The translations under genes were made by a program, and so were the position numbers. Positions 11,236 through 25,599 of a DNA stretch of 64,000 bases are shown piece after piece. How positions within the stretch are numbered: position 1 is the first letter of the stretch; every line of letters begins with the position of its first letter. Origin of the DNA: Rheinheimera sp. A13L (GTDB lineage Bacteria; Pseudomonadota; Gammaproteobacteria; Enterobacterales; Alteromonadaceae); contig NZ_AFHI01000020.1 in assembly GCF_000217935.1 (NCBI RefSeq), forward strand, positions 1 through 64,000. The letters are read 5' to 3'. The notes under the pieces were generated by a model that saw only the letters and a list, made by a program, of their open reading frames with translations, had not been told where the DNA came from and did no database searches.

Positions 11236-11991
11236 TCAGGGCGTTGGCAATTGTTCTTTATATTCAACCAGACCATAACGTTGTTTTAACTTTTGGATCT
11301 GATCTTGTTGTTCAATCAGAAACTGATTAAAGCGACGGATTTGCTCCGGATGTTTTTGACTGGATAAGTGAAATGCCAGATTGGTAAAAGGTAAATGTTC
11401 CGCCATCACTAATGCGCCCGGCAACTGCATTTGTTTTAAATGGTACTGTGCCACATTGTATTCAACATTAGCAGCATCCACCCTGCCCCGGATCGCCATA
11501 CGTAAAGCCGATTCAGCATCAGGTACATCCAGTATTTTAAACTTATGTGTTTGTTTCAACTGAAGCCAGAGGCTGGGCGAAAATCCATGAATATTGGCTA
11601 ACACCTTAAAGTCAGTCAGTTGCATTAAACGTTTTTCCGGCAAAACCAGTGTGGAGCCCAAAGTATAAATCACCGGAGCGCTGTAGTATTTGGCTTGGTT
11701 CTGATCGATATCTAAATGAGGTTGCCATGCAAGGTTATCCGGGTAAACAAAGTCGGTCAGCTCTGCTGAGTCTTTGTACAAGCGTTTGACCGGTAAAGCC
11801 TTAAAGCTGAACTCGTCACCGCTCCACTTGCTGTAAAGCCCGATCAAATCAAAAAAATAACCACGCGGCTGAGGCGATAAAAAATCGTAATGTGGATAAT
11901 AATCCAGTTGCTCTATACCTATCACATAGGTTTTAGCCTGCAGGCTCCAACAAAAACAGCTACTGAACAACAACATCAGGACAAGGCGCAT
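11236..11991 (-). CDS. Periplasmic substrate-binding-like protein (SBP_bac_3 type)
   Basis: A 251-residue protein with a signal peptide (about 1-19, ending LQAKTYVIGIEQ). The two-lobed solute-binding pattern is visible: an N-terminal YVIGIEQLDYYPHYDF strand, the FFDLIGLYSK helix, and a central ALRMAIRGRVDAANVEY segment typical of family 3 binding proteins. No ABC permease or ATPase is nearby, so it is more likely a sensor or receptor subunit than a transporter part. It is the last gene of the long minus-strand series, 51 bases after the GAF-HD-GYP stop, with GGAG before its ATG. Confidence 0.7.
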   Translation of the reverse strand: MRLVLMLLFSSCFCWSLQAKTYVIGIEQLDYYPHYDFLSPQPRGYFFDLIGLYSKWSGDEFSFKALPVKRLYKDSAELTDFVYPDNLAWQPHLDIDQNQAKYYSAPVIYTLGSTLVLPEKRLMQLTDFKVLANIHGFSPSLWLQLKQTHKFKILDVPDAESALRMAIRGRVDAANVEYNVAQYHLKQMQLPGALVMAEHLPFTNLAFHLSSQKHPEQIRRFNQFLIEQQDQIQKLKQRYGLVEYKEQLPTP

Positions 11992-12042
11992 GCAACTCCA
12001 ACTTCTTCAATGATACTTTTATAAGCCTAGTAGATTCAGAGC

Positions 12043-13671
12043 TTATTTACCTGCATACCTTTGTTCTGGTGGCAAATAACCCGGAATACTGTTCAGATCG
12101 ATGTGATCCATCTGACCCGGTTTTAAAAATTGCTCTGCATACTGCAGATACACTTTCTGATCGATAAAAATATCAAACAAGTCCGGATCTATATGCTGGT
12201 TCTCTTTCATTCGTCCCATAATCATCAGGCATTCACTTAAAGGTTTACCCTCTTTGTAAGGACGGTCAGAAGCGGTAAGGGCTTCAAAAATATCAGCTAT
12301 TGCCATCATACGGGCTGGCACTGACATTTGTTCTCTGCTTAATCCTTTGGGATAACCCGTACCATCCATTTTTTCATGATGACCACAAGCAAACTCAGGC
12401 ACCCTTTGTAAATGTTTAGGGAATGGCAAAGATTCCAGCATATCAACCGTAATATCCATATGGCGGTTGATGATCTGCCGCTCTTCAGCGGTTAAGGTGC
12501 CCCGGGCTATGCTCAGGTTATAAATTTCGTTTTCCGATAGCAGATCCTGTAACTGATCTGCGATGCGGATCTGTTGCTGACGACCAAAATCAGCAACACG
12601 CTGTTGATCGTTTTTATCCATAAACTCGCCGCCAATATTGGCTTTACGCAAAAACTCGCGTTGAGCATCCAACTCAGCCAGACCTTGCGCCAGTTGTTGT
12701 TGCAATCTGGCAACTTGCTCCAGATCCTGCTGATGCGAGGCCAGATACAAAGGACCAGCCAGACTCAGTTCCAGATCTCTTTTGGCAATCTCTATTTTGG
12801 CGTCGACCAGTTCTATCCGATCAAAAATAGTCTGTAACTTGCTGGCTTTATCCATCACATATTCAGGAGTCGCTATTTTTCCACAGTCATGCAACCAGCC
12901 CGCGACACTTAATTCATGCCGATCAGCTTCAGTCAGATTAAAGTCAGCCAAAGGCCCGCTATTGTGACGATGCACAGCATCTGCCAGCATCATGGTCAGT
13001 TCAGGAACCCGCTTGCAATGACCGCCGGTATAAGGAGATTTTTCATCTATAGCTTTAGCAATAAGCCGTGCTATGCCCTGAAACAATTCCTCCATGTTTT
13101 CAATCAGTTGCTTATTAGTTAATGCCACAGCGGCCAAAGAGGCAAGTGAGCGCACTAATTCCATTTGCTGCGCGGAAAATGCACTTACTTTTCCATCCAC
13201 TGTGGCGTTAATCAGCTGTAATACGCCGTTCAGTTCACCCTCATGATTTTTCATCGGCACAGTCAGAACCGACTGAGTGTGATAGCCGGTGCGCTGGTCC
13301 ATACTGCGGGCTGCACTTAAGTCATACTTCTGACAGGCATAGGCATCCGGAATATGGATCATTTCACCTTCAGCTGCGGCTATAGCCACTATAGCGTGTT
13401 GATTCACTTCGCCATCTTTGTAGATAGGAATAGAAGGGAAAGGAATAGGTTGGCCTGAACTGCCGCCCATATACATATTCAGCGAATTGTTGATCAGGGT
13501 TTCAAATTTCAGACTTTTGTCGGCGGTGATTGAATAAATGGTGCCGCCATCGGCCTGAGTTAAGGTTTGAGCACTGGTGAGAATACGTTCCAGTAAGCGG
13601 GTAGTATTCCGCTCCACCGATAATGAAATACCAATTTCAATCAGATGCTTTAATACTGAAGGTTCAGTCAT
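12043..13671 (-). CDS. GAF domain / HD-GYP phosphodiesterase with an insertion
   Basis: Predicted cytoplasmic c-di-GMP phosphodiesterase. A GAF domain occupies about residues 20-190 (DGGTIYSI ... GVLQLINA). The HD-GYP domain follows with LIAKAIDEKSPYTGGHCKRV, HDCGK near 260 and HHEKMDGTGYP near 432. These last two motifs are usually about 60-70 residues apart, but here about 170. The insert, rich in Q, L and E, looks like a coiled coil. I set the start at the ATG at 13671 (MTEPSVL), which follows GGGAAGA; the frame extends further but without a good site. It begins 14 bases after the cyclase stop, in the same operon. Confidence 0.85.
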   Translation of the reverse strand: MTEPSVLKHLIEIGISLSVERNTTRLLERILTSAQTLTQADGGTIYSITADKSLKFETLINNSLNMYMGGSSGQPIPFPSIPIYKDGEVNQHAIVAIAAAEGEMIHIPDAYACQKYDLSAARSMDQRTGYHTQSVLTVPMKNHEGELNGVLQLINATVDGKVSAFSAQQMELVRSLASLAAVALTNKQLIENMEELFQGIARLIAKAIDEKSPYTGGHCKRVPELTMMLADAVHRHNSGPLADFNLTEADRHELSVAGWLHDCGKIATPEYVMDKASKLQTIFDRIELVDAKIEIAKRDLELSLAGPLYLASHQQDLEQVARLQQQLAQGLAELDAQREFLRKANIGGEFMDKNDQQRVADFGRQQQIRIADQLQDLLSENEIYNLSIARGTLTAEERQIINRHMDITVDMLESLPFPKHLQRVPEFACGHHEKMDGTGYPKGLSREQMSVPARMMAIADIFEALTASDRPYKEGKPLSECLMIMGRMKENQHIDPDLFDIFIDQKVYLQYAEQFLKPGQMDHIDLNSIPGYLPPEQRYAGK

Positions 13672-13685
13672 TTGTCTTCCCTGCC

Positions 13686-15896
13686 CTATTTTTCCGCATG
13701 GGTATATACACCATCCCAATCAGCGCCTGGTGGTTGCTGACGGTAATAATTTATACGATCCAGATACAAACTATACAACTTATGGCCGGAGTCTTGTTGC
13801 AACCTGATCCAGAGCGCTTCAGCTTCAGTCCAGTGTTGCTGCAAATACAGAATCAGCGCCTGCTCATGCTGCTTCAAAGCGGCAACATAATGTGGATTCT
13901 CCAGCTGCTGTGGGTCTATAGGTTCATATATAGTGACAGCTTCAGTTTTGCCTTTTACTTTGACTTTATCCACAGTACGGAAGCTTAAAGTCGGGCATTG
14001 CTGCACTGTCACCTGACTGACTAAAAACCGGACCCCATAATATTTGGTCAGACTTTCCAGCCTTGAGCCTAAATTCACTGCATCGCCCAGTACTGTGTAA
14101 GCGCGGCGGTATTCAGATCCCATGTCGCCTACATTCATTTCACCTGTATTAACGCCAACACCAATATCAATAGCAGGCAGACCATCAGAGACAAAATTCT
14201 TACTCAGTTCATCGGTGATTTTTAGCATAGAAAAACCAGCTTTCACTGCCAGCTCAGCGTGAGCTTTTACATCCAGAGGCGCATTCCAGAATGCCATCAC
14301 CATATCACCCACATATTTATCTATGGTGCCCTGATGTTCAAATATAGTTTTAGTGATAGGCGAAAAGTAGCGATTTAATAAAGATTTTAATTCTGTGGCT
14401 GTCAGCTTTTCTGACAAAGTAGTAAAACCACGGATATCAGAAAACAACACTGACATTTCCTTACGTTTACCATCCAGGCTAACGCTTTCAGGGTGATTCA
14501 GCATTTCATCAATGTGAGCAGGAGGCACATACTGGTCAAAAATAGATTTAATCCGCGCTTTTTGCCGTGAAGCACCAAAAAAACCATAGATTAAATTCAG
14601 CAAGGTCAGACCTAAAATCAGTAACAAACTGGAGGTCAGTGGTAAATCCAATTTTAACACCTGCCAGCAGTACAAATTGCCCCCCAGGGTTAACAGCAAC
14701 AGACTGCCGCCTGTTAACGCCAGACTGACAGGACCAAGCACAGGGAATAACACACTCATAATTAAACCCAGCACAATTAAAAACAAAAACACCAAAGCTT
14801 CAGCCCAATCCGGATGGGAGTGAATCAACTCCGGATAAATTAAACCTTCAAATACATTGGCATGCACTTCAACACCTGGGTATTGCACCCCAACAGGAGT
14901 GGAACGCAAATCCGCATGGCCAACCGCAGAAGTGCCCACAAAAACCACAGCATCTTTGAGCAAGGTTTTATCCACCATGCCATGCAACGCATCTGAAGCG
15001 GAAATATAAGGGAAACTGCGGGCTGGCCCGCGATAAGGGATAAGCACCCTGCCGTATAAATCTGTATTGATGCGGGTATTACCCACAGTGACACCGACTA
15101 TGGTATTGATCTGCTCCAAAGGCGCAGTTTCCACTATTAGCTCATTTGCCAGCGCATACAAGCGGGCGGCTTCCAGCGCCAGCGAAGGGTAAACTTTGTC
15201 CTGATAACGGATCAGTAAAGCCGCCTGACGGATAAAACCATCGGGATCAGGAGAAGAGTTAATAAAACCTGTACCTGAACTTTGTTGTTGCAGCACTGCA
15301 GTATTGGCGACATAACCTGCAAAATTGCTGGCTGAACTTTGACTGGCCTGACTGTCCATAGCGACATAACTTTCAGGCAACTGACCTACAGCCAGTTGCT
15401 CTTGCTGGAACAAAAAACCCAGCACCACATCTTTATTTTCCAGACTCCTGGCAAACTGCTGATCGGCGTCCAGAGCCGGGGCTAATTGCTGCAACTCTTC
15501 CGTCATTTCTGCCGATAACTGCTGCTTTCCCCCCTGTAATACTTGCTGTACCGGGTTACGCTCGGGCTCGGAGAAAATCACATCAAAAGCCACCACAGAA
15601 GCACCTGCCGCAGTTAACTGCTCAAGCATTTGCGCTACCATCTGGCGACTCCAGGGCCAACGGCCCACCTGCTGCAAACTTTTTTCGTCTATATCCACAA
15701 TAACGACAGGCAGGTCGGTCGAGGCTCTGTAAGGCAGAGTCAATTTTAATCTGCTGTCATACAATAACCCATCAAGCCGCTTTAACACCGACTGCTCTGA
15801 ATAGACCGCACTGAGCTGAGCCAGCACCAGCCCCCCACTAAACAACAGACTGCACAGCAGTACCCAGTGATGACGACGCCAGTAATTCAGCACCAC
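13686..15896 (-). CDS. CHASE2 domain adenylate cyclase
   Basis: A membrane receptor cyclase of 736 residues. An N-terminal helix (about 9-28) is followed by a periplasmic CHASE2 sensor (about 30-340, with DIDEKSLQQVGRWPW and FDVIFSEPE). Three transmembrane helices (about 350-445) lead to a class III cyclase domain. Metal aspartates are in LFSDIRGF (about 485) and YVGDMVMAFW; the lysine in DKYVGD and the VLGDAVNLGSR motif fit ATP as substrate. The product would be cAMP. The GTG start overlaps the stop of the upstream hydrolase gene by ten bases, so the two are coupled. Confidence 0.9.
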   Translation of the reverse strand: MVLNYWRRHHWVLLCSLLFSGGLVLAQLSAVYSEQSVLKRLDGLLYDSRLKLTLPYRASTDLPVVIVDIDEKSLQQVGRWPWSRQMVAQMLEQLTAAGASVVAFDVIFSEPERNPVQQVLQGGKQQLSAEMTEELQQLAPALDADQQFARSLENKDVVLGFLFQQEQLAVGQLPESYVAMDSQASQSSASNFAGYVANTAVLQQQSSGTGFINSSPDPDGFIRQAALLIRYQDKVYPSLALEAARLYALANELIVETAPLEQINTIVGVTVGNTRINTDLYGRVLIPYRGPARSFPYISASDALHGMVDKTLLKDAVVFVGTSAVGHADLRSTPVGVQYPGVEVHANVFEGLIYPELIHSHPDWAEALVFLFLIVLGLIMSVLFPVLGPVSLALTGGSLLLLTLGGNLYCWQVLKLDLPLTSSLLLILGLTLLNLIYGFFGASRQKARIKSIFDQYVPPAHIDEMLNHPESVSLDGKRKEMSVLFSDIRGFTTLSEKLTATELKSLLNRYFSPITKTIFEHQGTIDKYVGDMVMAFWNAPLDVKAHAELAVKAGFSMLKITDELSKNFVSDGLPAIDIGVGVNTGEMNVGDMGSEYRRAYTVLGDAVNLGSRLESLTKYYGVRFLVSQVTVQQCPTLSFRTVDKVKVKGKTEAVTIYEPIDPQQLENPHYVAALKQHEQALILYLQQHWTEAEALWIRLQQDSGHKLYSLYLDRINYYRQQPPGADWDGVYTHAEK

Positions 15897-16702
15897 AACT
15901 CCATTCCTTCCAACGCCATCACTACTTCAGGCTGCTGGCCGCTCCATTGCTGCGCCAACAGATCCAATTGCTGATCGCTTCGGGCCGGATCATGGCTGAA
16001 GATCACCAGCTTTTTCACTTTAGCTTCCACAGCTAAAACCACAGCTTCAGTCACCAGCGAGTGACCCCAGCCTAATTTGTGAGGCATATCTGTTTCCAGA
16101 TACTGACCATCATGGATCAGCAGATCAACTCCAGCGACAAACTCCAGCCATTGTGCTCTGGGAGTCAGCTCTTGTTGTGGCGGGAACAGTTCATTGTCTG
16201 TGACATAGGCCAGGCTCTGCCCATCTGCAGTAATACGATAAGCACTGCCGGAGCCGGGATGGTTCAGCCGGCAACGCCGGATATGAAAATCGCCAAGTTG
16301 CCACTGATCTTCTGCCATAGGGGTAATGCGTATAACAGAGGGTAACTGATTGGGCGGTACAGGAAAAAACTCACCACACATTTGCTTTAAAATAGCGTCG
16401 TGCTCACCATGCAACGTATGACCCGGAATAATGCGGATCTGCCGCCCGGCCTGATAGGCTGGTGCAAAAAAAGGAAAACCCTGAATATGATCCCAATGGT
16501 TATGGCTCAGCAGCAACACCAGTTCGGTATTGTCAGCCATCAATTCATGGCCAAGTTGCCGGATACCAGTGCCTGAATCAAGAATTAATTGCTGACCACT
16601 GTGGCTGGTCAGCAACACACAAGGCGTGTTGCCACCATAGCGCTGTGTATCCGGCCCAGGCGTGGGAATTGAGCCACGCACACCATAGAATTTAATCTGC
16701 AT
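15887..16702 (-). CDS. MBL-fold metallohydrolase, cyclic-phosphodiesterase-like
   Basis: The 271-residue metallo-beta-lactamase-fold protein has the metal motif SHNHWDH at residues 66-72, later His/Asp ligands in TDNEL and FSHDPA, and an N-terminal GVRGSIPTPG typical of the COG1235 / PhnP-like group. That group includes phosphoribosyl cyclic phosphodiesterase. It has no signal peptide. It starts nine bases after the giant lipoprotein gene and overlaps the adenylate cyclase by ten bases, so a role in breaking down a cyclic nucleotide is an attractive but unproven idea. The substrate cannot be read from the sequence. Confidence 0.8.
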   Translation of the reverse strand: MQIKFYGVRGSIPTPGPDTQRYGGNTPCVLLTSHSGQQLILDSGTGIRQLGHELMADNTELVLLLSHNHWDHIQGFPFFAPAYQAGRQIRIIPGHTLHGEHDAILKQMCGEFFPVPPNQLPSVIRITPMAEDQWQLGDFHIRRCRLNHPGSGSAYRITADGQSLAYVTDNELFPPQQELTPRAQWLEFVAGVDLLIHDGQYLETDMPHKLGWGHSLVTEAVVLAVEAKVKKLVIFSHDPARSDQQLDLLAQQWSGQQPEVVMALEGMELWC

Positions 16703-16711
16703 AATGACTCA

Positions 16712-19700
16712 CTAAATTGTATTATTTTGGTATTCATACAGTTGGTATTGCCGCAGTGTTGCCTGGTACCCCCCGCCAGAGCCATAGTTACTCCAGCCTA
16801 ATGTGACTTTGCTGCTGGTCAGCTCCATAAATAAGTCATAGGAGAAACTAAAACCAGTAAACACATAAGCACCATAAGTCGCAGAATCAGGTTCAAATGC
16901 GGGGTCCCAACGGCCAACATCAGAGCCACTGCCATCCAGCAGTACCCTTCCTACCCACGCATCAATACCTGAAGTCCCGGCCATCAATAACCGCCCCGCA
17001 GCATCAACATGGATAGTTTTGATCTGCAGATCTGCAGGCACAAGATTGCTGAAACTGTTATAAAGTCGCGGCATAGCCGAATTAAACGAATTATCCGCCA
17101 GGCCGTTTTGCAATACCCTGTACAGATAATGCGCTTGATCCCCTTCGTAATTACTCGATAGCGCCAGAACCAGATTACGGCCTGCATCAAAATCCAGGCC
17201 ATTGATATACTCAGAATAGTGGTATTGGTCATTACTATTATCGACCAGATTAATCAGGCTATAACCCACACCTGCTTCACCAAAAGTATCTGAAGGGCTG
17301 TTGGCTGTATTCATCAGGACACCGTCTTCACTAAAACGTGCGACATAAAGTTGAGGGTCAGTGCTCAGATTGTATTGGCCTGCAATCACCAGGCTACCGT
17401 CCACAGGGTCCAGTTTCATTTGACTGAGTCGTTCTTCAGTTGCTGCACTGGCATCTATTTGATTGAATACGGTAAAGCCCGCAGCTGAATAACCAAAAGA
17501 ACCAAGGTCCAGACTTCCATCGGTATTGAGTTGCATAACCACAACGTCTACATTGTCATAGATGTAGCCATATTCAGCTCCAATCAGCAAATGGCCATCA
17601 GCCCTGAGTTGCAGTTTCACAGCCGAAGAATGGTCATAACTACCCACAGCAGCCGGAGCTAAAGTAAAAATTCCATTCGCAAAACTGGTATCCACAGAGC
17701 CATTTTGATTCAATCTCAATGCAAAACCTGTCAGGCTGTCATTACCATCAAAGCTTTCACCAGCCAGATATATCTGATTTGAATCTGCTTCAGCTATGTC
17801 TCTTATAGTCATGTAGTCAAGCTGGTCAGAGCCCAGGAGCACCAGACCATGATTACCAAAACTCTGATCCAGAGCTCCACTGGCGGTTAAGCGGCCGATA
17901 AAAGTCTGGTAATAGTAGCCGTTCAGATAAGAGTAACTATAACCATAAAACAGAGTTTTATTGACCTGACTTCCCAGTAGCAATCTTTGACTGCCAAGCA
18001 AAATATCTTCACCAAAGCCAGCATTAAACCAGCGTTGTCCATCGCCGGAAAATGCTGTGTCCGCAGCTAAAGTATTGTGCTGATATTTACCGACCCAGTT
18101 GAAGCTGACACTTCCAGCAGCACCGTAATTTGGATTACTGAAATGATTGAGCAACCACAAGCCTGCACCATCACTTTGCAGATCCACCGCTTTTAATTGT
18201 CCATCCACCGCAAGAGGCTGATCGGACATAAAGTCTCCAATCAGATTGTATTGACTAAGCGAGACCATATCACCGCCACTCTCTGCTGTACTGGTCAGCA
18301 CATAGAATCCACTCTGATCGACCGCCAGAGATTGGTAATGCAATGGATAACCTGAATGACCACTGACCTGAATAAATCCGGCAGCATTTCCAAAGCCAGG
18401 GGTCAGACTGCCGTCGTACGTCAGTTTAAAAAACACCCCATCCGGACTTGCAGGAGCAGAGGACTCAGTCACGCTGCCCACCACATACAACTCATCGTTG
18501 TGCATCACAGCATCATAAGGTTTAGAAGAAGCTAAAGAGAAATCATACTGCCGGTAGCCAACACAGCCTGGAGTACAACCAAAGGTGCTGCTGTCTGGTA
18601 CAAAAGAAGAGAGGAATCGGGCGATCACTATATGATCGCCAGACGATTGGCCTATACCATAGTAGTTATGGTCGCTGTCCTGACGCACCAGGTCAAACTG
18701 CTTAATAGTACTGAGTGTACTTACCCAGCCAGACTGATAGCCGGAATCAGCAAACTCAAACAGGAAAGCAAGATCATCCTTGCTGCCAGACACCACATAA
18801 TGTCCAAGATGATTCAGGATCAGATCGGTTGCCTGCACATCACCACTATCACATGGAGTGTATTCACACAGCACATAACCCTGCATATTGCCAAAGTTAT
18901 AATCCAGAACTCCGTCTTCACTGAGCTTAATCAGGTAAAAACCTGAACTTCCACTCTCAAAATAGTTGGCCAGTATCACCAGTTCATTGTTGCTGGTGAC
19001 TACCCCAGCTACAGCTTGCTCTGTGGCATAGACAGAAAACACCTTACTTCGGAACACACCTTTGTCCGCATAACTGGGGTCAACAGAACCATCCGGGGTT
19101 AGTCGTACGACAAAAAGCTCCTGCTCATAAGAATTGCTGACGTTACCAATCACCAGACTACTGCCGTCACTTAATGGAATTATTTGTACCGGGTCGTTGT
19201 ACTCGCCGCTGAGCATCATATCTAATGACAGGTTGGCGCCGCCGGCAAAGGTCGTGTCAGGACTGACCAGCGTCTCATAGGTCTGGGCTGCAATGACTGT
19301 AATGACCACTGTGGCTGTATCCACCAGATTGGCATCGCCATTTTCTGTCACTTTAACAACCAGGCTATAAGAAGGGGTAGTGTCAGCATTCAGTAAAGAC
19401 GAATCTGCAATCTGAATACCGCCACCTGAGGTAATAGCAAAAACCCCTGCTGTGTTCCCTGACAAAATTTCAAAACTGTAACTGCCCGGATCCGGGTCAG
19501 ACACCGTCATGGTCAGCACATGCTGTGAATTAACATAGTCATCATAAATAGTAGCAGTTGCGTCTTGCAGAGTCGGGGGGGTATTAACAGGAAGGATATT
19601 TAGTTCCACCTGTGCATCAGAAGTTAAATTCCCCTGAGTCAGTCGATAGGTAAAATAATAGGCACCGTAGGAGCCAGTTGCAGGCTGATAGGTAAAAGTA

Positions 19701-22700
19701 CCATCTGTGCTTAAGCTCAACGAGCCATAAGGTGGCGCCTGCACCAGACTAACACTCCGCTGTTGGTCTGGATCAAAAATATCATTCTTTAATAAAGAGT
19801 TAGCAGCAGTGACAGTGAGCAGCGTATCTTCATCCAGAGTGTAAGCATCAAAGTTTGCTAACAAGGCGGGCAACACCTGAGCCACAGTGATGGTCACAGT
19901 TGTACTGGCAGTTCTTACTCCATTTGTGACCTGATAATGAAAAATATCCTGCCCATAAAAGTGTGTATTAGGTTGATAGCTAAAGCTGCCATCCGCGTTA
20001 ATACTAAGCTGCCCATAAAAAGGTCCTGAAGTGACAGAGGTGACAGTTAACCCTAATCCTGAAGGGTCTGTGTCATTGCTAAGCACACCAGCAGCGGCAT
20101 TCACCTGCAACAGACTGTCCTGATTTACTGTATAGGAATCGGCATTGGCAACAGGCAAGGCAGGTATCAAACTCAGCGTAATTAAAGCCGTACCTGTAGC
20201 ACCGGCGCTGTCGGTGATTTGTATAGTTAAAACCCCACTGGATCCGCCTCTGGCCTGCAAGGCACTTGCACTGGCAACCACAAGCTGGCCTTGATTGGTC
20301 ACAGAAAATGCTTGAGTGTAATCTCCATTCAGAATGCTAAAGCTGTAACTCTGATTGGTTTCTGCATCTTGCCAAATTAGTTGCCCCACTACAGTTCCCT
20401 GAGCCACAGCCTCAGAAAAAGTAAAAGTAGCAGGATTTAATACAGGCGCATCATTCACCGGAGTCACAGTAATAAGCACTGTAGCCTGTGCTGACCTGGT
20501 CCCGTTGCTGGCACTGTAAACAAAACTGTCTTGTCCATAAAAGTTCAGATTTGGACTATAGCTAAAATGACCGTTGGCATTGAGGCTTAACACACCATGA
20601 GCAGGTGCTGTCACCAGACTGGCTGTCAAGCCAACCCCTTTAGGATCCACGTCATTGGCGAGCACACTGACAGTTGACGTCAGCACCTGGTCTTCCGCCA
20701 CTGAATAGTTGTCATTCTTTGCAGTAACCTGAGTACTTTTAACCTTGACAGTTACGGTGGCTTGCGCTGAAAGTCCTGCACTATTTTGTGCTTTGACCGT
20801 CAGTAGTACAGAGGTCCCGGCCAACTGAACCAAAGGTGCAGGGTTTGCAACGCTGAGTATACCGGCAGCTGTCAGATCGAAAATACCTTGTGCATTACCA
20901 GCAATAAGGCTGAAGCTGATGCTTGTATCAGGAGCAGTATGAGTCACAAAAAACTGGGCCAGACCAAAACCTGGAGGGACATCATCCCAAACCTCAACCA
21001 TCAAATCGGCGAACACAGGGGGGGTTGGAGCGGCAATTATAGTGATGGTCACTGTACCTGTACCCACTGCTCCTGCAGGATCCGTGACCTGATAACTAAA
21101 ACTGTCTGTCCCTACAGCTGTAGCATGGGGTTGATAACTAAAAGCCCCGCTCGCTGACAAGGTCAAGACCCCTTTGGCCGGTGCAGCAACAGGGGTTGTC
21201 ACCAGACTCAGGTTGTTATCATCCACATCAAACGCATGCGCTAACAAACCTGGAGCGGAAACAGATAACAAAGCGCCCTGATTCACAGAATAAGCAGATG
21301 GCTGCACCACTGGCGGATCATTTTGCGCCAGCACAGTCAGCAGCACGGTGGCAGTGCTGACCAAGCCGGCCGGGTCTTTAATCTGGTAGCTAAAGCTGTC
21401 AGTACCAAAAAAATCCTGATTAGGGATATACAAAAAACTGCCATCGGATGCCAATACCAACTGGCCATTTTTGACTGTAGTTGGCAGCTCTGTCACCAGC
21501 GTGATAGCGTCACCATCCGGGTCAAAGTCGTTAGCCAAAATGCCATTGGCAGCATCAACTACCAACCTTGCATCTTCATTCACCTGATAACTGTCATTTC
21601 GAGCAACAGGAGCAGCATTCGTCATTTCAATGCGCAGGCTGACCCTGGCCTGGGCTGAACCGCCCTGACCATCAGTTACCTGATACACAAAAAAATCTTC
21701 GCCTGCATAATTGGTTTGTGGTGTATAGCTAAAAGAGCCATCTGCATTGAGCTGCAAACTGCCATGGGCAGGTGCTGTTATGGGTGCAACCTCGACAACC
21801 AGCGTATCGCCATCCAGATCAAAATCATTATTTAATACACCAGGTGCAGCGATATTCAGGCTGTTGTTTTTATTCAGGCTATAACTGTCATCCTGAGCTA
21901 CCGGCGCATCGTTCACAGGCAACACAGTTAAACTGACCAGAGCCTGAGCTGTCAGCCCTTGGGTGTCGACGATTTGATAAATAAAACTGTCATTACCAAA
22001 AAAGTTGGGCGCAGGCTGATAAATAAAAGAGCCATCGGTATTCAGTACCAAAGTTCCGTTGTCCGGCAAACGCACAGCTTGTGGGTCCAGACTAAAACTG
22101 CGGTTATCAGGATGACTGTCATTGTTCAGTAAAAAGCCTCTGAATTCAGTATCTTCGTTCAGGCTAAACTGATCAGGGGTAGCAACAGGAGCTGAAAATT
22201 CAGGTGCCCCCAGTGGTTGCACTACATGTTGCTGTGAATATAAGCTTTCACCGGACGAATCAACTCCGGTAACGAGGACAAAATAACGTTGATTTGCAAT
22301 TAACCCAGGCACAGCAACAGCGGGTTGCGACAAAGCTAAAAACTGGCGGCCACCTGTTTTAGTCAGGACATTTTCTGGTGTGATACCGGGCTGCTCAGCA
22401 ATATACAGGTTGTAACGGCGGGCGTTGTTGTTTGCTGCCCAATTGATCTGCGCAGTCGTATCAGTTCTGCTGGTGTTTAGCCCTGTTATGGCCTCAGGTA
22501 ACCATTCAATATCCCGGGCGTCAAACATAATACGGTTACCCAACACATCTTCCAGCCACAGCTCTAAACGCAAGGAACCAGGAGTCAGGCCGAAATTACG
22601 TGGGTTCACACCGGTCACAGTTTGCGAGAAGCTTGTACCACAATTGCTGTCACATAAAACCAATGCCTGTTCACTACCGCTGAACCCCACCAATACACGG

Positions 22701-23068
22701 GCTATACCATCGGGATCAGCCACATCCACAGCTATGGTCAGATTGCCGCTGATGCTCTCGCCTGAACGCGGGAAACGATAATTGGCAGTACCATTACCTA
22801 CCGCCAGATTTTGCACCAGATTAGTACGTAAAGGAGAACCTGCTGCCAGCGAGTTGTAGCCAAAAGCCACCATCAGGCCCATTTCAACCGGAGTGTCACC
22901 CACCGGAGGGACAACAGGAATAGTGACAGGTGGAGGCACAACAGGCCTGTCCCCTGAGGGGGTATCCGACCCACTATCCCCACCAGAGCCACCACAAGCA
23001 GTCAGCACCAGACAAAGGGTTAAGATGAACCAGCGCCGGAAAAACTCACGAAACAGAGCTACACGCAT
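16712..23068 (-). CDS. Giant repeat lipoprotein (cadherin/tandem-95 and delta-60 repeats)
   Basis: A predicted surface lipoprotein of 2118 residues. The start is the ATG at 23068, which follows AAGGAT; the frame reaches back only to a TTG. The lipobox LTAC puts the lipidated cysteine at residue 25, followed by GGSGG, which fits the outer membrane. After a Pro-rich linker comes a unique domain (about 60-190), a fibronectin III-like unit (about 195-290), and seven tandem-95/VCBS-like modules of the NDxYxxxED...GVLxND form, interleaved with three cadherin-like modules (about 297-1260). From about 1264 to the end there are about nine delta-60 repeats (RLTxDGSVDxSFGN), probably forming beta propellers. 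Adhesion or surface sensing is likely. It follows fecR-like and TPR-barrel genes. Confidence 0.88.
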   Translation of the reverse strand: MRVALFREFFRRWFILTLCLVLTACGGSGGDSGSDTPSGDRPVVPPPVTIPVVPPVGDTPVEMGLMVAFGYNSLAAGSPLRTNLVQNLAVGNGTANYRFPRSGESISGNLTIAVDVADPDGIARVLVGFSGSEQALVLCDSNCGTSFSQTVTGVNPRNFGLTPGSLRLELWLEDVLGNRIMFDARDIEWLPEAITGLNTSRTDTTAQINWAANNNARRYNLYIAEQPGITPENVLTKTGGRQFLALSQPAVAVPGLIANQRYFVLVTGVDSSGESLYSQQHVVQPLGAPEFSAPVATPDQFSLNEDTEFRGFLLNNDSHPDNRSFSLDPQAVRLPDNGTLVLNTDGSFIYQPAPNFFGNDSFIYQIVDTQGLTAQALVSLTVLPVNDAPVAQDDSYSLNKNNSLNIAAPGVLNNDFDLDGDTLVVEVAPITAPAHGSLQLNADGSFSYTPQTNYAGEDFFVYQVTDGQGGSAQARVSLRIEMTNAAPVARNDSYQVNEDARLVVDAANGILANDFDPDGDAITLVTELPTTVKNGQLVLASDGSFLYIPNQDFFGTDSFSYQIKDPAGLVSTATVLLTVLAQNDPPVVQPSAYSVNQGALLSVSAPGLLAHAFDVDDNNLSLVTTPVAAPAKGVLTLSASGAFSYQPHATAVGTDSFSYQVTDPAGAVGTGTVTITIIAAPTPPVFADLMVEVWDDVPPGFGLAQFFVTHTAPDTSISFSLIAGNAQGIFDLTAAGILSVANPAPLVQLAGTSVLLTVKAQNSAGLSAQATVTVKVKSTQVTAKNDNYSVAEDQVLTSTVSVLANDVDPKGVGLTASLVTAPAHGVLSLNANGHFSYSPNLNFYGQDSFVYSASNGTRSAQATVLITVTPVNDAPVLNPATFTFSEAVAQGTVVGQLIWQDAETNQSYSFSILNGDYTQAFSVTNQGQLVVASASALQARGGSSGVLTIQITDSAGATGTALITLSLIPALPVANADSYTVNQDSLLQVNAAAGVLSNDTDPSGLGLTVTSVTSGPFYGQLSINADGSFSYQPNTHFYGQDIFHYQVTNGVRTASTTVTITVAQVLPALLANFDAYTLDEDTLLTVTAANSLLKNDIFDPDQQRSVSLVQAPPYGSLSLSTDGTFTYQPATGSYGAYYFTYRLTQGNLTSDAQVELNILPVNTPPTLQDATATIYDDYVNSQHVLTMTVSDPDPGSYSFEILSGNTAGVFAITSGGGIQIADSSLLNADTTPSYSLVVKVTENGDANLVDTATVVITVIAAQTYETLVSPDTTFAGGANLSLDMMLSGEYNDPVQIIPLSDGSSLVIGNVSNSYEQELFVVRLTPDGSVDPSYADKGVFRSKVFSVYATEQAVAGVVTSNNELVILANYFESGSSGFYLIKLSEDGVLDYNFGNMQGYVLCEYTPCDSGDVQATDLILNHLGHYVVSGSKDDLAFLFEFADSGYQSGWVSTLSTIKQFDLVRQDSDHNYYGIGQSSGDHIVIARFLSSFVPDSSTFGCTPGCVGYRQYDFSLASSKPYDAVMHNDELYVVGSVTESSAPASPDGVFFKLTYDGSLTPGFGNAAGFIQVSGHSGYPLHYQSLAVDQSGFYVLTSTAESGGDMVSLSQYNLIGDFMSDQPLAVDGQLKAVDLQSDGAGLWLLNHFSNPNYGAAGSVSFNWVGKYQHNTLAADTAFSGDGQRWFNAGFGEDILLGSQRLLLGSQVNKTLFYGYSYSYLNGYYYQTFIGRLTASGALDQSFGNHGLVLLGSDQLDYMTIRDIAEADSNQIYLAGESFDGNDSLTGFALRLNQNGSVDTSFANGIFTLAPAAVGSYDHSSAVKLQLRADGHLLIGAEYGYIYDNVDVVVMQLNTDGSLDLGSFGYSAAGFTVFNQIDASAATEERLSQMKLDPVDGSLVIAGQYNLSTDPQLYVARFSEDGVLMNTANSPSDTFGEAGVGYSLINLVDNSNDQYHYSEYINGLDFDAGRNLVLALSSNYEGDQAHYLYRVLQNGLADNSFNSAMPRLYNSFSNLVPADLQIKTIHVDAAGRLLMAGTSGIDAWVGRVLLDGSGSDVGRWDPAFEPDSATYGAYVFTGFSFSYDLFMELTSSKVTLGWSNYGSGGGYQATLRQYQLYEYQNNTI

Positions 23069-23090
23069 AACTTTATCCTTCAAGGCGGCG

Positions 23091-24257
23091 CTATTTAATC
23101 AAAAAGATACCGCCAGCAATGACCGCCGGGTTCTCAATTTCACTCAATACAAACTGCCCGAGGATCTGATCAATACCATTCACAAAAAGCGTATCGATTT
23201 GCCCCTGAGCTCTTTCATTACCGTGGCTGGCAAAATTAACACCTAATTCCAGCTGGTCCACATTCACCACACCGTTAAAAGCAGCAAACCATTCACCGCC
23301 AGCATCGTTAAAAGACAATTCGCCTTGAGGTACTGTGCCATTATCAAAATCTATGGTCAGACTGACCTGAAAGTCAGATACTGCGCCTTCGGTACTTTGT
23401 ACGCTGAACTGCTCAAGAGTGTTGTATTGGTAACTGCCGGTACGCGCTGCGATCAAGTCAGCAACTGGAATTTGCTCACTGCTGCCCTGATAGGATTGCG
23501 CCGCAATAAAGGACGTATCTTCTGAACCTTGACTTGATACTGAGTTTGTAGCCTGAGTGAGCACAGTATTTGAGCCTGTATCTGTGTTGCTGCCTGATCC
23601 AATGCTGCTTTCCTCGCCACCAGCACCTGTCTCTCCTGCAAATTCAGCTGGGGGTGATAACAAAGGAGTGACTTGTCCTGCAGCGCTGATGCTCGCAAAG
23701 GATGCACTTTCACCACCACCAAAAGTGACATTTTCTACAGTGCCGTCTGCTCTGGTAACTTGTAATTCAATCTGACCATCCCAAACCCCAACCAACATAA
23801 TTTCGTTGATGTAGGACAACTGAAAGGTAGTACCTCGTATCCCTATACTGCCGACAGGAGTTTTCAGTTGATAGTTACCCGCATCGCCTTTAATAGAGCC
23901 TGTGACAGTACGCAGACTGCCTTTCACCAGCTCCATCACCACTGAGCCTTGTTCTGTGCCTGAACCGGCCTTGTATTCAGAGATCAGCAGTTCTGTATCG
24001 CTTTGTAAGGCTAACAGAGCGCCATCAAGCATTCTGAACTGGGCCTGGCTTTGCGCTCCGGTACTGACCTGATCAATATTAAAAACCGGCGCTTTACGAT
24101 TCAAATCACGGCTTTGTTGGGTATCAGTTGCTGTTGCCGTCACATTACCTCTGGCCATCAATGTCAGGCCTGCATTTCCCGTTTGCTCCTGCGCCGACAG
24201 AGCAAGACTACATAAAGCCAGCATTGGCATAACAATCACACTAAGGTTAGAACGCAT
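23091..24257 (-). CDS. FecR domain secreted protein
   Basis: The 388-residue protein has a signal peptide (about 1-21) and a FecR domain at about residues 55-180, with QFRMLDGALLALQSDTELLI and the hallmark TPVGSIGIRGTTFQLSY. The C-terminal half is low in hydrophobicity, rich in S/G/T (linker about 205-250), and ends in a folded region. Unlike the classic FecR anti-sigma factor, it has no cytoplasmic domain or sigma gene nearby; this secreted type often accompanies CHASE2 proteins. It overlaps the upstream gene by 11 bases and ends 22 bases before the giant lipoprotein start, so the three are one unit. Confidence 0.87.
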   Translation of the reverse strand: MRSNLSVIVMPMLALCSLALSAQEQTGNAGLTLMARGNVTATATDTQQSRDLNRKAPVFNIDQVSTGAQSQAQFRMLDGALLALQSDTELLISEYKAGSGTEQGSVVMELVKGSLRTVTGSIKGDAGNYQLKTPVGSIGIRGTTFQLSYINEIMLVGVWDGQIELQVTRADGTVENVTFGGGESASFASISAAGQVTPLLSPPAEFAGETGAGGEESSIGSGSNTDTGSNTVLTQATNSVSSQGSEDTSFIAAQSYQGSSEQIPVADLIAARTGSYQYNTLEQFSVQSTEGAVSDFQVSLTIDFDNGTVPQGELSFNDAGGEWFAAFNGVVNVDQLELGVNFASHGNERAQGQIDTLFVNGIDQILGQFVLSEIENPAVIAGGIFLIK

Positions 24258-25599
24258 AGCTGGCTCCTAGCACACATTCTGTGCGGTCATATTCATACAA
24301 AGTTACAGGGCTGTTTTTATTAGTGTAGCTGCATCTGAGCTCAGTGCCGAACGAGGCCGAATACTGCCAAATCCAACTGCCCGTGAAGGAGAATAATGCT
24401 TCATCCCGCACTACCCTGAATAAGGGATGAGGCGCTTTATGACTGATGTCTTGTAGTTCAGCTCTGGCGATAAGAATATGGGAAGCACTGGCCAGCCAGA
24501 TGGTGCTGTAACTTAAAGAACTGACCACTCTGCTGTTATAGTCAGCACTTTCAAGACGGCTGCGCTCATTGGACACGCTGATATTGGCCTGATTGATCCA
24601 GCGGCTGCCTTTGCGCTCCCAGGACGCGCTCAGAGCGTGCAGGGTCAGGTTTAGTCTGTCATCTATTCTGTTGTCTGAACGACCTGATACCCACTGCAGA
24701 CCCACAGAATTCAGCGCATTCATCTGATATTTTCCGCTAATTTGGCCGCCCCAGTCATTACGATACAACTGTCCGTCCAAACGCAAAGGCCTGCTGTAAG
24801 CGCGCATGCTGTAACTGTACTGCTGATAATCAGCCTCAAAACCCGCGCGGACCGCCAGGGTTTCCCTGTCAAACTCGGACAACTGATTAAACTTTGTAGC
24901 ACCCAATTGTGCATCGGCCAGCCAGGCATAACGTTGGTCCTGCTGCCAGCGGCCATCGAAGCTGTATCCAAGCTGGTGAAAGTTATCACTGCTCGCCTGG
25001 CTTTGTGGAAACACATCAATTTCCCCTAAAGAAGGGATAAAAACTCTGTCTTCAGCAGTACCACTGTTGACGTTGTCATCATGGCCAAAGCCGTACCTGA
25101 TCTTATGCCGCTGATGGCCTTTTAACTTAGTTTGTTCCCACTCTGCTGCGCTGCGTAACTTAGAGACAGGTTCAACCAAATCTGCTTGTGGCTGTTTCTC
25201 AAGTTGATCCAACTGACGTAAAGCCGCAGGATAATTTTTTGTTTTGTAATAGGCCTGAGCTAAGGTAAAACGAGCTTGTTGCCATTGTGGTTTCTCAGCA
25301 ACAACACGTTCAAGCGCAAATACAGCTCTGTCATTTTGACCTACATGCAAGGCAATACGACCATAAGCCATATCAAAATCCGGGTCGCCCGCCAGCTCCA
25401 TTTCTAAAGCTTCAGCCAACTGATACGCCTGGTCCAATTGACCTGCTTTGACCAGTTGAATAAATTCAGCCTTTTGTTGTTCTGTATTTTGCGCTGCGGC
25501 AAAGAGCGGAGAAACCGCCGCACTCAACAAAATAAAAAGGCCTATTTTTAAAAGAGGCGTGCGGTTGGCTTTCACTTTGGGTCTCCCTACTTTATTCAC
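24247..25599 (-). CDS. TPR plus outer-membrane beta-barrel protein (Slam-like architecture)
   Basis: The 450-residue protein has a signal sequence (about 15-36), TPR repeats (about 40-165: AYQLAEALEMELAGDPDFDMAYGRIAL, ARFTLAQAYYKTKNYPAAL) and a C-terminal barrel (about 175-450) of alternating strands ending in Phe, the usual outer-membrane assembly signal. The barrel opens with YGFGHDDNVNSG, a pattern seen in TPR-barrel proteins such as Slam (DUF560), which move lipoproteins to the surface. Similarity to Slam is by architecture only. The start is a GTG at 25599 after AGAGG. It is the first gene of the operon with a FecR protein and a giant lipoprotein. Confidence 0.75.
   Translation of the reverse strand: MNKVGRPKVKANRTPLLKIGLFILLSAAVSPLFAAAQNTEQQKAEFIQLVKAGQLDQAYQLAEALEMELAGDPDFDMAYGRIALHVGQNDRAVFALERVVAEKPQWQQARFTLAQAYYKTKNYPAALRQLDQLEKQPQADLVEPVSKLRSAAEWEQTKLKGHQRHKIRYGFGHDDNVNSGTAEDRVFIPSLGEIDVFPQSQASSDNFHQLGYSFDGRWQQDQRYAWLADAQLGATKFNQLSEFDRETLAVRAGFEADYQQYSYSMRAYSRPLRLDGQLYRNDWGGQISGKYQMNALNSVGLQWVSGRSDNRIDDRLNLTLHALSASWERKGSRWINQANISVSNERSRLESADYNSRVVSSLSYSTIWLASASHILIARAELQDISHKAPHPLFRVVRDEALFSFTGSWIWQYSASFGTELRCSYTNKNSPVTLYEYDRTECVLGASYAF

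Follow-up and report, generated by a model that had tools for sequence, protein, structure and literature searches.

Analysis of a 64,000-nucleotide stretch of Rheinheimera sp. A13L (contig NZ_AFHI01000020.1, hereafter the window) concluded that a series of genes on its minus strand belongs to a real and widespread module, centered on a Slam-like outer-membrane barrel, a FecR protein and an adenylate cyclase with a CHASE2 sensor domain, and that the likely logic of this module is control of the CHASE2 receptor by an outer-membrane barrel-cargo pair acting via the FecR domain. A relay that runs from the barrel through the FecR cargo to CHASE2 and cyclic AMP (cAMP), that is, from the outer membrane to cyclic nucleotides, was given a probability of about 0.6. 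At the level of sequence and structural models, this reading is based on domain content, the constant pairing of barrel and FecR genes, the cargo fold of the C-terminal half of the FecR protein, intact catalytic residues, and the way in which the FecR halves co-vary with separate partners. As computational evidence, that from fold, adjacency and co-variation is solid; from it we infer a signalling mechanism, including the threading, the direction of signalling, the enzyme substrates, the ligand of the GAF domain and the stimulus.

The FecR protein (23091–24257, 388 amino acids), whose gene overlaps the barrel gene by 11 bases, has, by inspection, a Sec-type signal peptide and no lipobox. It consists of a FecR/cell-surface-signalling-type domain (residues 28–204; 23646–24176), a disordered linker (about residues 205–271; 23445–23645; predicted local distance difference test score, pLDDT, below 50 at residues 211–260), and, in the AlphaFold model, a C-terminal barrel of eight strands, of the kind carried by type XI secretion cargos (residues 272–388; 23094–23444). 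The N-terminal half matches the signalling domain of PupR (6ovk). Structure comparison of the model assigned the C-terminal half to the cargo-type eight-stranded barrel fold of the TbpB/fHbp/NHBA/HphA type, and among the structural matches listed for it, rows 4 to 50 were NHBA, fHbp, TbpB and hemophilin entries. The FecR gene adjoins the barrel gene, as would be expected of a type XI cargo if the barrel is a type XI secretion system (T11SS) outer-membrane protein. The FecR protein is modeled as a probable partner or cargo of the Slam-like barrel; a type XI cargo would be expected to reach the surface or the medium.

Pfam matched no cargo family in any of 32 aligned FecR members (E 0.1), 10 FecR proteins from the class sample (E 1) or the FecR proteins of loci L209 and L220 (E 0.01), and the cargo assignment therefore relies on the fold and, for distant members, on profile comparison. 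An iterated profile of the C-terminal barrel detected 146 of 186 FecR proteins. Seven of the 40 that it missed sit beside CHASE2 receptors without a barrel gene, and these are all seven such proteins that were examined; the LysM-type FecR protein of L057, which the FecR profile itself missed, was excluded from these controls. When 16 undetected FecR proteins of at least 360 amino acids were analyzed by profile comparison, 11 matched at a probability of at least 95, one at 73.5 and four at 0.1. The linker between the two halves was at least 56 residues long in 145 of the 146 proteins measured, with a median of 86, and the C-terminal barrel ended at most 10 residues from the C-terminus in 114 of 146. 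This floor in linker length, together with the long upper tail, would fit a linker that spans something. A PDB sequence search with the FecR profile yielded nothing useful, and a hand-made regular expression for a cargo motif was dropped after it matched three of 57 next genes and 10 of 1763 background proteins.

The barrel protein (24247–25599, 450 amino acids) is encoded first in transcription order. Its AlphaFold model, built with 31 aligned members, has a mean pLDDT of 92.7 and comprises N-terminal helices resembling tetratricopeptide repeats (TPRs) to about residue 159, followed by 14 long barrel strands in residues 162–449. Slam has 14 strands, and its architecture, with N-terminal TPRs and a 14-stranded outer-membrane barrel, is matched by this model. 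Of the 31 aligned members, 13 have a SlipAM (PF04575) match in Pfam and 19 a TPR_Slam match, and the 60 matches listed for a PDB sequence search with the barrel profile are mostly TPR proteins. SlipAM exceeded the Pfam cut-off in L209, L213, L220 and L223. In L209 and L220 the next gene encodes a FecR protein; in L223, whose barrel was reached by the same profile at E 3e-50, the next gene encodes a TbpB_B_D protein, a textbook cargo. Because these loci share one profile, the FecR-paired barrels and the canonical Slams look like a single sequence family. As a type XI secretion protein, the barrel would translocate a cargo protein. No Slam entry appeared among the structural matches listed for the barrel model, which is not evidence against this assignment.

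Comparison of gene neighbourhoods identified FecR as the constant neighbour of the barrel. Of the 147 genomes of the family, 52 have CHASE2 (51 besides the window's own); they supplied 60 fetched regions, with a few weak or partial places omitted. Counting the window, 60 family loci have a CHASE2 cyclase-type gene; a barrel lies near 33 of them, and in the loci with a barrel the order of barrel, FecR, giant repeat protein, metallo-beta-lactamase-fold (MBL) hydrolase, cyclase and HD-GYP protein recurs whole or in part at about 23–65% identity to the window proteins. FecR is the next gene after 32 of the 34 barrel open reading frames (ORFs), near which the cyclase was found 34 times, the giant protein 29, the MBL hydrolase 22 and the HD-GYP protein 25 times. 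In 80 named loci, which are the best 80 of 343, were picked by FecR similarity alone and overlap the family sample, every locus has a barrel ORF and FecR is the next gene after 80 of the 81 barrel ORFs (one is a split gene); the cyclase is near 65, the giant protein near 73, the MBL hydrolase near 51 and the HD-GYP protein near 46. All counts of the cyclase, MBL, giant-protein and HD-GYP genes are lower bounds, because contig or fetch ends truncate many of the loci; L068 has no cyclase-type match. Since the identical order recurs across genera at such identities, and again in the named records, the gene arrangement exceeds what chance would be expected to give, and the first-pass annotation of this DNA, which had made co-occurrence beyond close relatives its own test, is upheld in this respect.

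The class sample (60 of 102 listed places besides the window's own) left out seven places with comparable scores (E 1e-64 to 1e-39) together with every weaker one, and these probably include canonical Slams. FecR is the next gene after 54 of its 60 barrels, near which the cyclase was found 21 times, the giant protein and the HD-GYP protein three times each, and the MBL hydrolase not at all. At class level, the core is reduced to the barrel-FecR pair. The phylum sample comprised 21 of 53 listed places, in 20 regions, five others being already sampled or the window's own and 27 weaker ones being left out; FecR is the next gene after 16 of the 21 barrels and a CHASE2 receptor is near eight. These eight were read as CHASE2 receptors rather than as cyclases, because the profile behind the cyclase label includes CHASE2 (seven of the eight matches exceed 1100 amino acids, and that of L221 has 725) and because the CHASE2 protein encoded after the barrel-FecR pair in L212 (2492–8777) is a histidine kinase that also has receiver and Hpt domains. 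Similar caution applies to the cyclase label of the proteins of 816–819 amino acids in L010, L011, L030 and L057. The kinase of L212, which stands in place of the cyclase, suggests that the output of the barrel-FecR pair is interchangeable. Plasmid searches with the FecR and barrel sequences gave no matches.

The two halves of the FecR protein were found to vary with different partners. Of 100 loci with complete genes, 66 were kept after removal of near-identical barrels, and rank partial correlations of pairwise distances were calculated, the main figures being those of the 54 loci outside the class sample. The C-terminal barrel correlated with the outer-membrane barrel at 0.59, compared with 0.07 for the N-terminal half, while the N-terminal half correlated with CHASE2 at 0.47 and with the cyclase domain at 0.42, compared with 0.02 for the C-terminal barrel and CHASE2. 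The two halves correlated with each other at only 0.06, despite being parts of one protein. The three contrasts held when all 66 loci were used, with positive values in 98, 100 and 100% of bootstraps. By this comparison of sequences, the C-terminal half varies with the outer-membrane barrel and the N-terminal half with the CHASE2 cyclase. Gene order would predict the reverse pattern, since it is the N-terminal half that is encoded next to the barrel gene.

The enzymes of the module appear intact. Class III adenylate cyclases carry two metal-binding aspartates, a lysine/threonine pair that selects the purine, and an asparagine and an arginine that stabilize the transition state; these residues are kept in 135–138 of 140 aligned proteins, including the window cyclase (13686–15896), which has the ATP-type Lys/Thr pair. 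No other class III cyclase, and no class I cyclase, was found in the 4.5-Mb host genome, which has one CYTH-domain protein; cNMP-binding domains occur at ten places, eight of them above the family cut-off. The module may therefore control most of the cAMP of the cell, as far as the class III and class I searches go. The MBL hydrolase (15887–16702), the gene of which the cyclase gene overlaps by 10 bases, is a PF12706 (Lactamase_B_2) protein with the motif SHNHWDH and with metal ligands invariant across 29 aligned sequences. The motif [T/S]HXHXDH in a PF12706 protein has been described as defining atypical class-II cAMP phosphodiesterases, in which X tends to be hydrophobic or small (PMC9293780, as far as its text was available); SHNHWDH fits, though its X residues, N and W, are not both of this kind. 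The protein scored 39.4 against NF041851 (cyclic nucleotide-degrading phosphodiesterase; cut-off 400), with most of its length covered, and ribonuclease Z models scored higher, likewise far below their cut-off. On sequence grounds it is a probable atypical class-II cAMP phosphodiesterase.

The ORF of the GAF and HD-GYP protein (12043–13719), read from its TTG, overlaps the cyclase gene by 34 bases; a start at the ATG at 13671 is likelier and leaves a 14-base gap. The HD pair and HHExxDGxGYP motif of the protein are invariant in 22 of 22 aligned sequences, and it is a predicted phosphodiesterase of cyclic di-GMP (c-di-GMP). The closest PDB matches of its GAF domain are the cyclic-nucleotide GAF domains of PDE5A, CyaB2, PDE2A and PDE10A, and these matches also include an HD-GYP structure (4mcw). 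HD-GYP genes of this type lie at most three genes from the cyclase in 35 of the 60 family CHASE2 loci, and in 12 of the 27 without a barrel nearby. The enzymes of cAMP and c-di-GMP metabolism do sit together in the series, as first annotated. In L092 and L104, such an HD-GYP gene directly adjoins the genes for the barrel and FecR, and the stretch that was fetched (only 5.7 kb in L104) contains no cyclase gene.

These observations suggest the following mechanism. The Slam-like barrel would bind, and probably thread, the C-terminal cargo-type barrel of the FecR protein, and the FecR domain on its long flexible linker would act as a periplasmic switch for the CHASE2 domain of the cyclase. A state at the surface, perhaps whether the barrel is occupied or the giant protein engaged, would alter the contact between FecR and CHASE2 and so set cAMP. 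That cAMP is probably hydrolysed by the MBL enzyme, and through the GAF domain of the HD-GYP enzyme a cyclic nucleotide probably sets c-di-GMP. Barrel, FecR and CHASE2 would form the core, to which the giant protein, the phosphodiesterase and the HD-GYP protein would be family-level additions. In a stricter version, which we hold to be rather unlikely, export of the cargo would halt midway: its barrel would be outside, its linker would run through the Slam-like lumen, and its FecR domain would stay in the periplasm as a permanent CHASE2 switch; outputs would be interchangeable, and the GAF domain would read a cyclic nucleotide, so that a single surface event would set both cAMP and c-di-GMP.

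Several observations weigh against the relay. Its support is computational throughout, and interaction, localisation and activity are predicted from sequences or models. In the family, 27 of the 60 CHASE2 loci have no barrel nearby, although some of them are cut by contig or fetch ends. The C-terminal barrel was not found in 14 of the 54 class-level FecR neighbours, nine of which are shorter than 360 amino acids and were outside the profile comparison, and many phylum-level FecR proteins carry proline-rich tails instead. The window barrel gave no SlipAM match at E 0.01, its own TPR_Slam match is weak and below the cut-off, and the generic barrels FadL, BcsC, CymA and OmpG top its Foldseek ranking. 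Over all 66 loci the FecR halves correlate at 0.31. Moreover, the N-terminal half tracks the cyclase domain and CHASE2 about equally well, so that the expectation of a closer tie to CHASE2 is not clearly borne out (this contrast was positive in 68% of bootstraps, and in 25% with untransformed distances) and direct contact with CHASE2 is not singled out. Distance correlations are also not independent of shared ancestry and unequal rates, and the pairs are non-independent, which may introduce bias. In GAF domains that bind cyclic nucleotides, the marker is the NKFDE motif; the window GAF domain lacks its K and D/E, while N171 and F181 are invariant, and the GAF domains of L033 and L056 keep the K and D/E positions in part. 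Finally, known soluble T11SS cargos such as HrpC are described as released (PMC8406197, in the portions available), and release would take FecR away from CHASE2.

In one alternative, an ordinary type XI barrel releases the whole FecR protein, and any FecR that stays behind in the periplasm would signal to CHASE2 that the exporter is blocked or busy, much like an exported anti-sigma factor that reports secretion. The Sec-type signal without a lipobox and the C-terminal cargo barrel are indeed features of soluble T11SS cargos, and the two genes are adjacent; however, release does not need the long linkers seen in almost all proteins measured. In addition, sister FecR proteins in L010, L011 and L030 carry, by inspection, a LysM domain instead, which presumably holds them in the periplasm, and LysM-FecR proteins beside CHASE2 receptors, both in these loci and in the partially available report on Burkholderia (PMC5192318), are presumably held at peptidoglycan. 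The linker floor and the LysM domains thus favour a retained FecR domain over full release, and we regard full release as unlikely. Docking alone offers another explanation, to which we assign similarly low odds: the small barrel would dock on the periplasmic side of the outer-membrane protein, nothing would cross, and the pair would sense the assembly or spacing of the outer membrane. Adjacency and co-variation fit this equally, as does the LysM-like domain in some sister proteins, but the fold is that of translocated cargos, and the TPRs do not follow the C-terminal barrel (partial correlation -0.02). The odds of the relay and of these two alternatives overlap, because all share a barrel-FecR pair that acts on CHASE2 and differ in the destination of FecR.

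In the model of the first-pass annotation, the barrel exports the giant lipoprotein as a surface-contact sensor, with FecR as a periplasmic signal protein in its own right. A lipobox is present in most of the giant protein's complete relatives, and its gene sits between the FecR and MBL genes in most family loci with a barrel. Against this, the cargo barrel belongs to the FecR protein, the giant protein accompanies so few class-level barrels, and it was not seen in L046, L047, L050 and L054, which keep the barrel, FecR, MBL and cyclase genes. Moreover, five relatives (L019, L022, L031, L035 and L044) have, by inspection, an ordinary signal peptide without a lipobox; in L035 the automated lipobox pattern match falls inside the signal peptide. 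Service of the barrel to the giant protein is accordingly not supported, and the model is improbable. A polysaccharide or small-molecule channel of the BcsC, PelB or porin type in a biofilm operon is more improbable still, since the Foldseek and VIA listings of FadL, BcsC, PelBC, CymA and OmpG are set against SlipAM domains in the relatives of the barrel and the absence of a polysaccharide synthesis gene among ten window proteins scanned.

Compared with known systems, the relay resembles type XI secretion in having a TPR protein with a 14-stranded barrel, an adjacent gene product ending in a cargo-type barrel, SlipAM in the barrel relatives, and, in L223, a TbpB_B_D cargo within the same barrel family. 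It differs in that a FecR signalling domain, attached by a long disordered linker, forms the cargo's effector half, often with a CHASE2 receptor encoded nearby. The terms FecR, cyclase and CHASE2 are absent from the main texts, in the form available, of two papers on type XI secretion (PMC8406197 and PMC12282271). FecI/FecR/FecA and PupI/PupR/PupB signalling share the FecR fold and a link to an outer-membrane barrel; here, in contrast, neither a TonB receptor nor a sigma factor was found among the ten window proteins scanned, and the FecR protein has an N-terminal signal peptide (by inspection) and no cytoplasmic anti-sigma part. A proposed likeness exists to RcsF in outer-membrane barrels, with a linker through the lumen, one domain outside and the signalling domain inside, but RcsF is, according to the parts available (PMC9907809, PMC4942254), a lipoprotein that signals to IgaA and a phosphorelay, and threading is only proposed here.

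The window encodes a FecR-domain protein together with a CHASE2 receptor, and such pairs have been reported before. A Campylobacterota cluster comprises a CHASE2 cyclase, a cAMP phosphodiesterase, a FecR outer-membrane protein and a TPR protein, for which one pathway was suggested; the four matching kinds of gene make the same kind of pathway likely, while a Slam-like barrel, a cargo fold, a giant protein and an HD-GYP protein go unmentioned in the available part of that report, with which the comparison is by description (PMC9239204). In Burkholderia, the BiofilmReg operon needed for biofilm encodes a LysM-FecR protein and a CHASE2 histidine kinase, and so likewise places FecR beside a CHASE2 receptor, but it has a peptidoglycan-binding LysM domain for the cargo barrel, a kinase for the cyclase and, in the portion available, no mention of an outer-membrane barrel (PMC5192318). 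Elsewhere, the targets of cAMP-Clr in Sinorhizobium include a FecR protein (PMC5498481), and in magnetotactic bacteria mtxA is followed by a gene similar to adenylate cyclase and CHASE2 (PMC4439547). The statement in the first-pass annotation that the whole set had not been described as one module is thus mostly right, with the qualification that FecR-CHASE2 pairs, including the Campylobacterota cluster, are in print. FecR-CHASE2 operons are already known, and for their tie to a secretion-type barrel and cargo no description was found in the literature as far as it was available; titles and abstract openings held nothing linking FecR to type XI secretion or Slam, most subscription papers and bioRxiv preprints being outside the scope of that search.

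On this reading, an exporter family would be reused as a surface-to-cAMP sensor, a use of which no description was found. CHASE2 is a sensory domain widespread in bacteria, and a 2016 paper described what it recognises as unknown (PMC5192318, part available); if FecR is the CHASE2 switch and a type XI barrel and cargo move FecR, its recognition becomes a four-gene question.

The remaining genes of the series were examined in the window ORFs. The first-pass annotation had described seven closely spaced minus-strand genes, and their number, strand, positions and spacing were all borne out by the ORF coordinates; its domain assignments agree with Pfam, which identified TPRs, FecR, Big_9/cadherin repeats with DUF5122, Lactamase_B_2, CHASE2 with Guanylate_cyc, and GAF with HD-GYP across the series. 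The giant Big_9/cadherin-repeat protein with delta-60 (DUF5122) propeller repeats (16712–23083) has a TTG start with a 7-base gap after the FecR gene; a likely ATG at 23068 would give 2118 residues and a 22-base gap, and 9 bases separate the gene from the MBL gene. The window protein has the lipobox LTAC, and relatives range from about 860 to at least 4000 amino acids. By its distribution the giant protein is an apparent accessory to the module. Among L039, L042, L045, L146, L153 and L163, some have a giant protein of at least 4000 amino acids, its ORF being truncated by the end of the fetched region, and others have it split into two ORFs.

Other forms of the FecR protein and of its surroundings were observed. 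L217, L218, L222, L226 and L227 have barrel-paired FecR proteins with proline-rich tails in which the C-terminal barrel was undetected, and others in the phylum sample are alike. In L026, L051, L052 and L053, the CHASE2 cyclases have a third type of FecR partner, of about 244 amino acids, with a twin-arginine-like N-terminus by inspection and no C-terminal barrel detected. Two proteins beside a barrel, in L213 (5314–8376, 1020 amino acids) and L215 (5320–8940, 1206 amino acids), match the C-terminal barrel profile and not FecR, and are possible other cargos. Among four genomes of the same genus (G045, G083, G111 and G137), CHASE2 was found in two, G045 and G137, both with a short version of the module in which MBL and HD-GYP genes were not present in the fetched stretch.

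The first-pass claim of a single module held for six of the seven genes, which recur together and appear from these comparisons to be a real module, the conserved series stopping at about 12043. The seventh (11236–11991), which follows the HD-GYP gene after 51 bases and encodes a secreted protein of 251 amino acids, had no Pfam or NCBIfam match and, by BLASTP, no homologue in the 60 fetched family loci, and is therefore probably outside the conserved module. A sequence scan found 11 promoter-like sites (23.0 in shuffles) and 20 terminator-like sites (15.3 in shuffles), and was uninformative on operon ends. By inspection, the product of the seventh gene resembles small solute-binding proteins.

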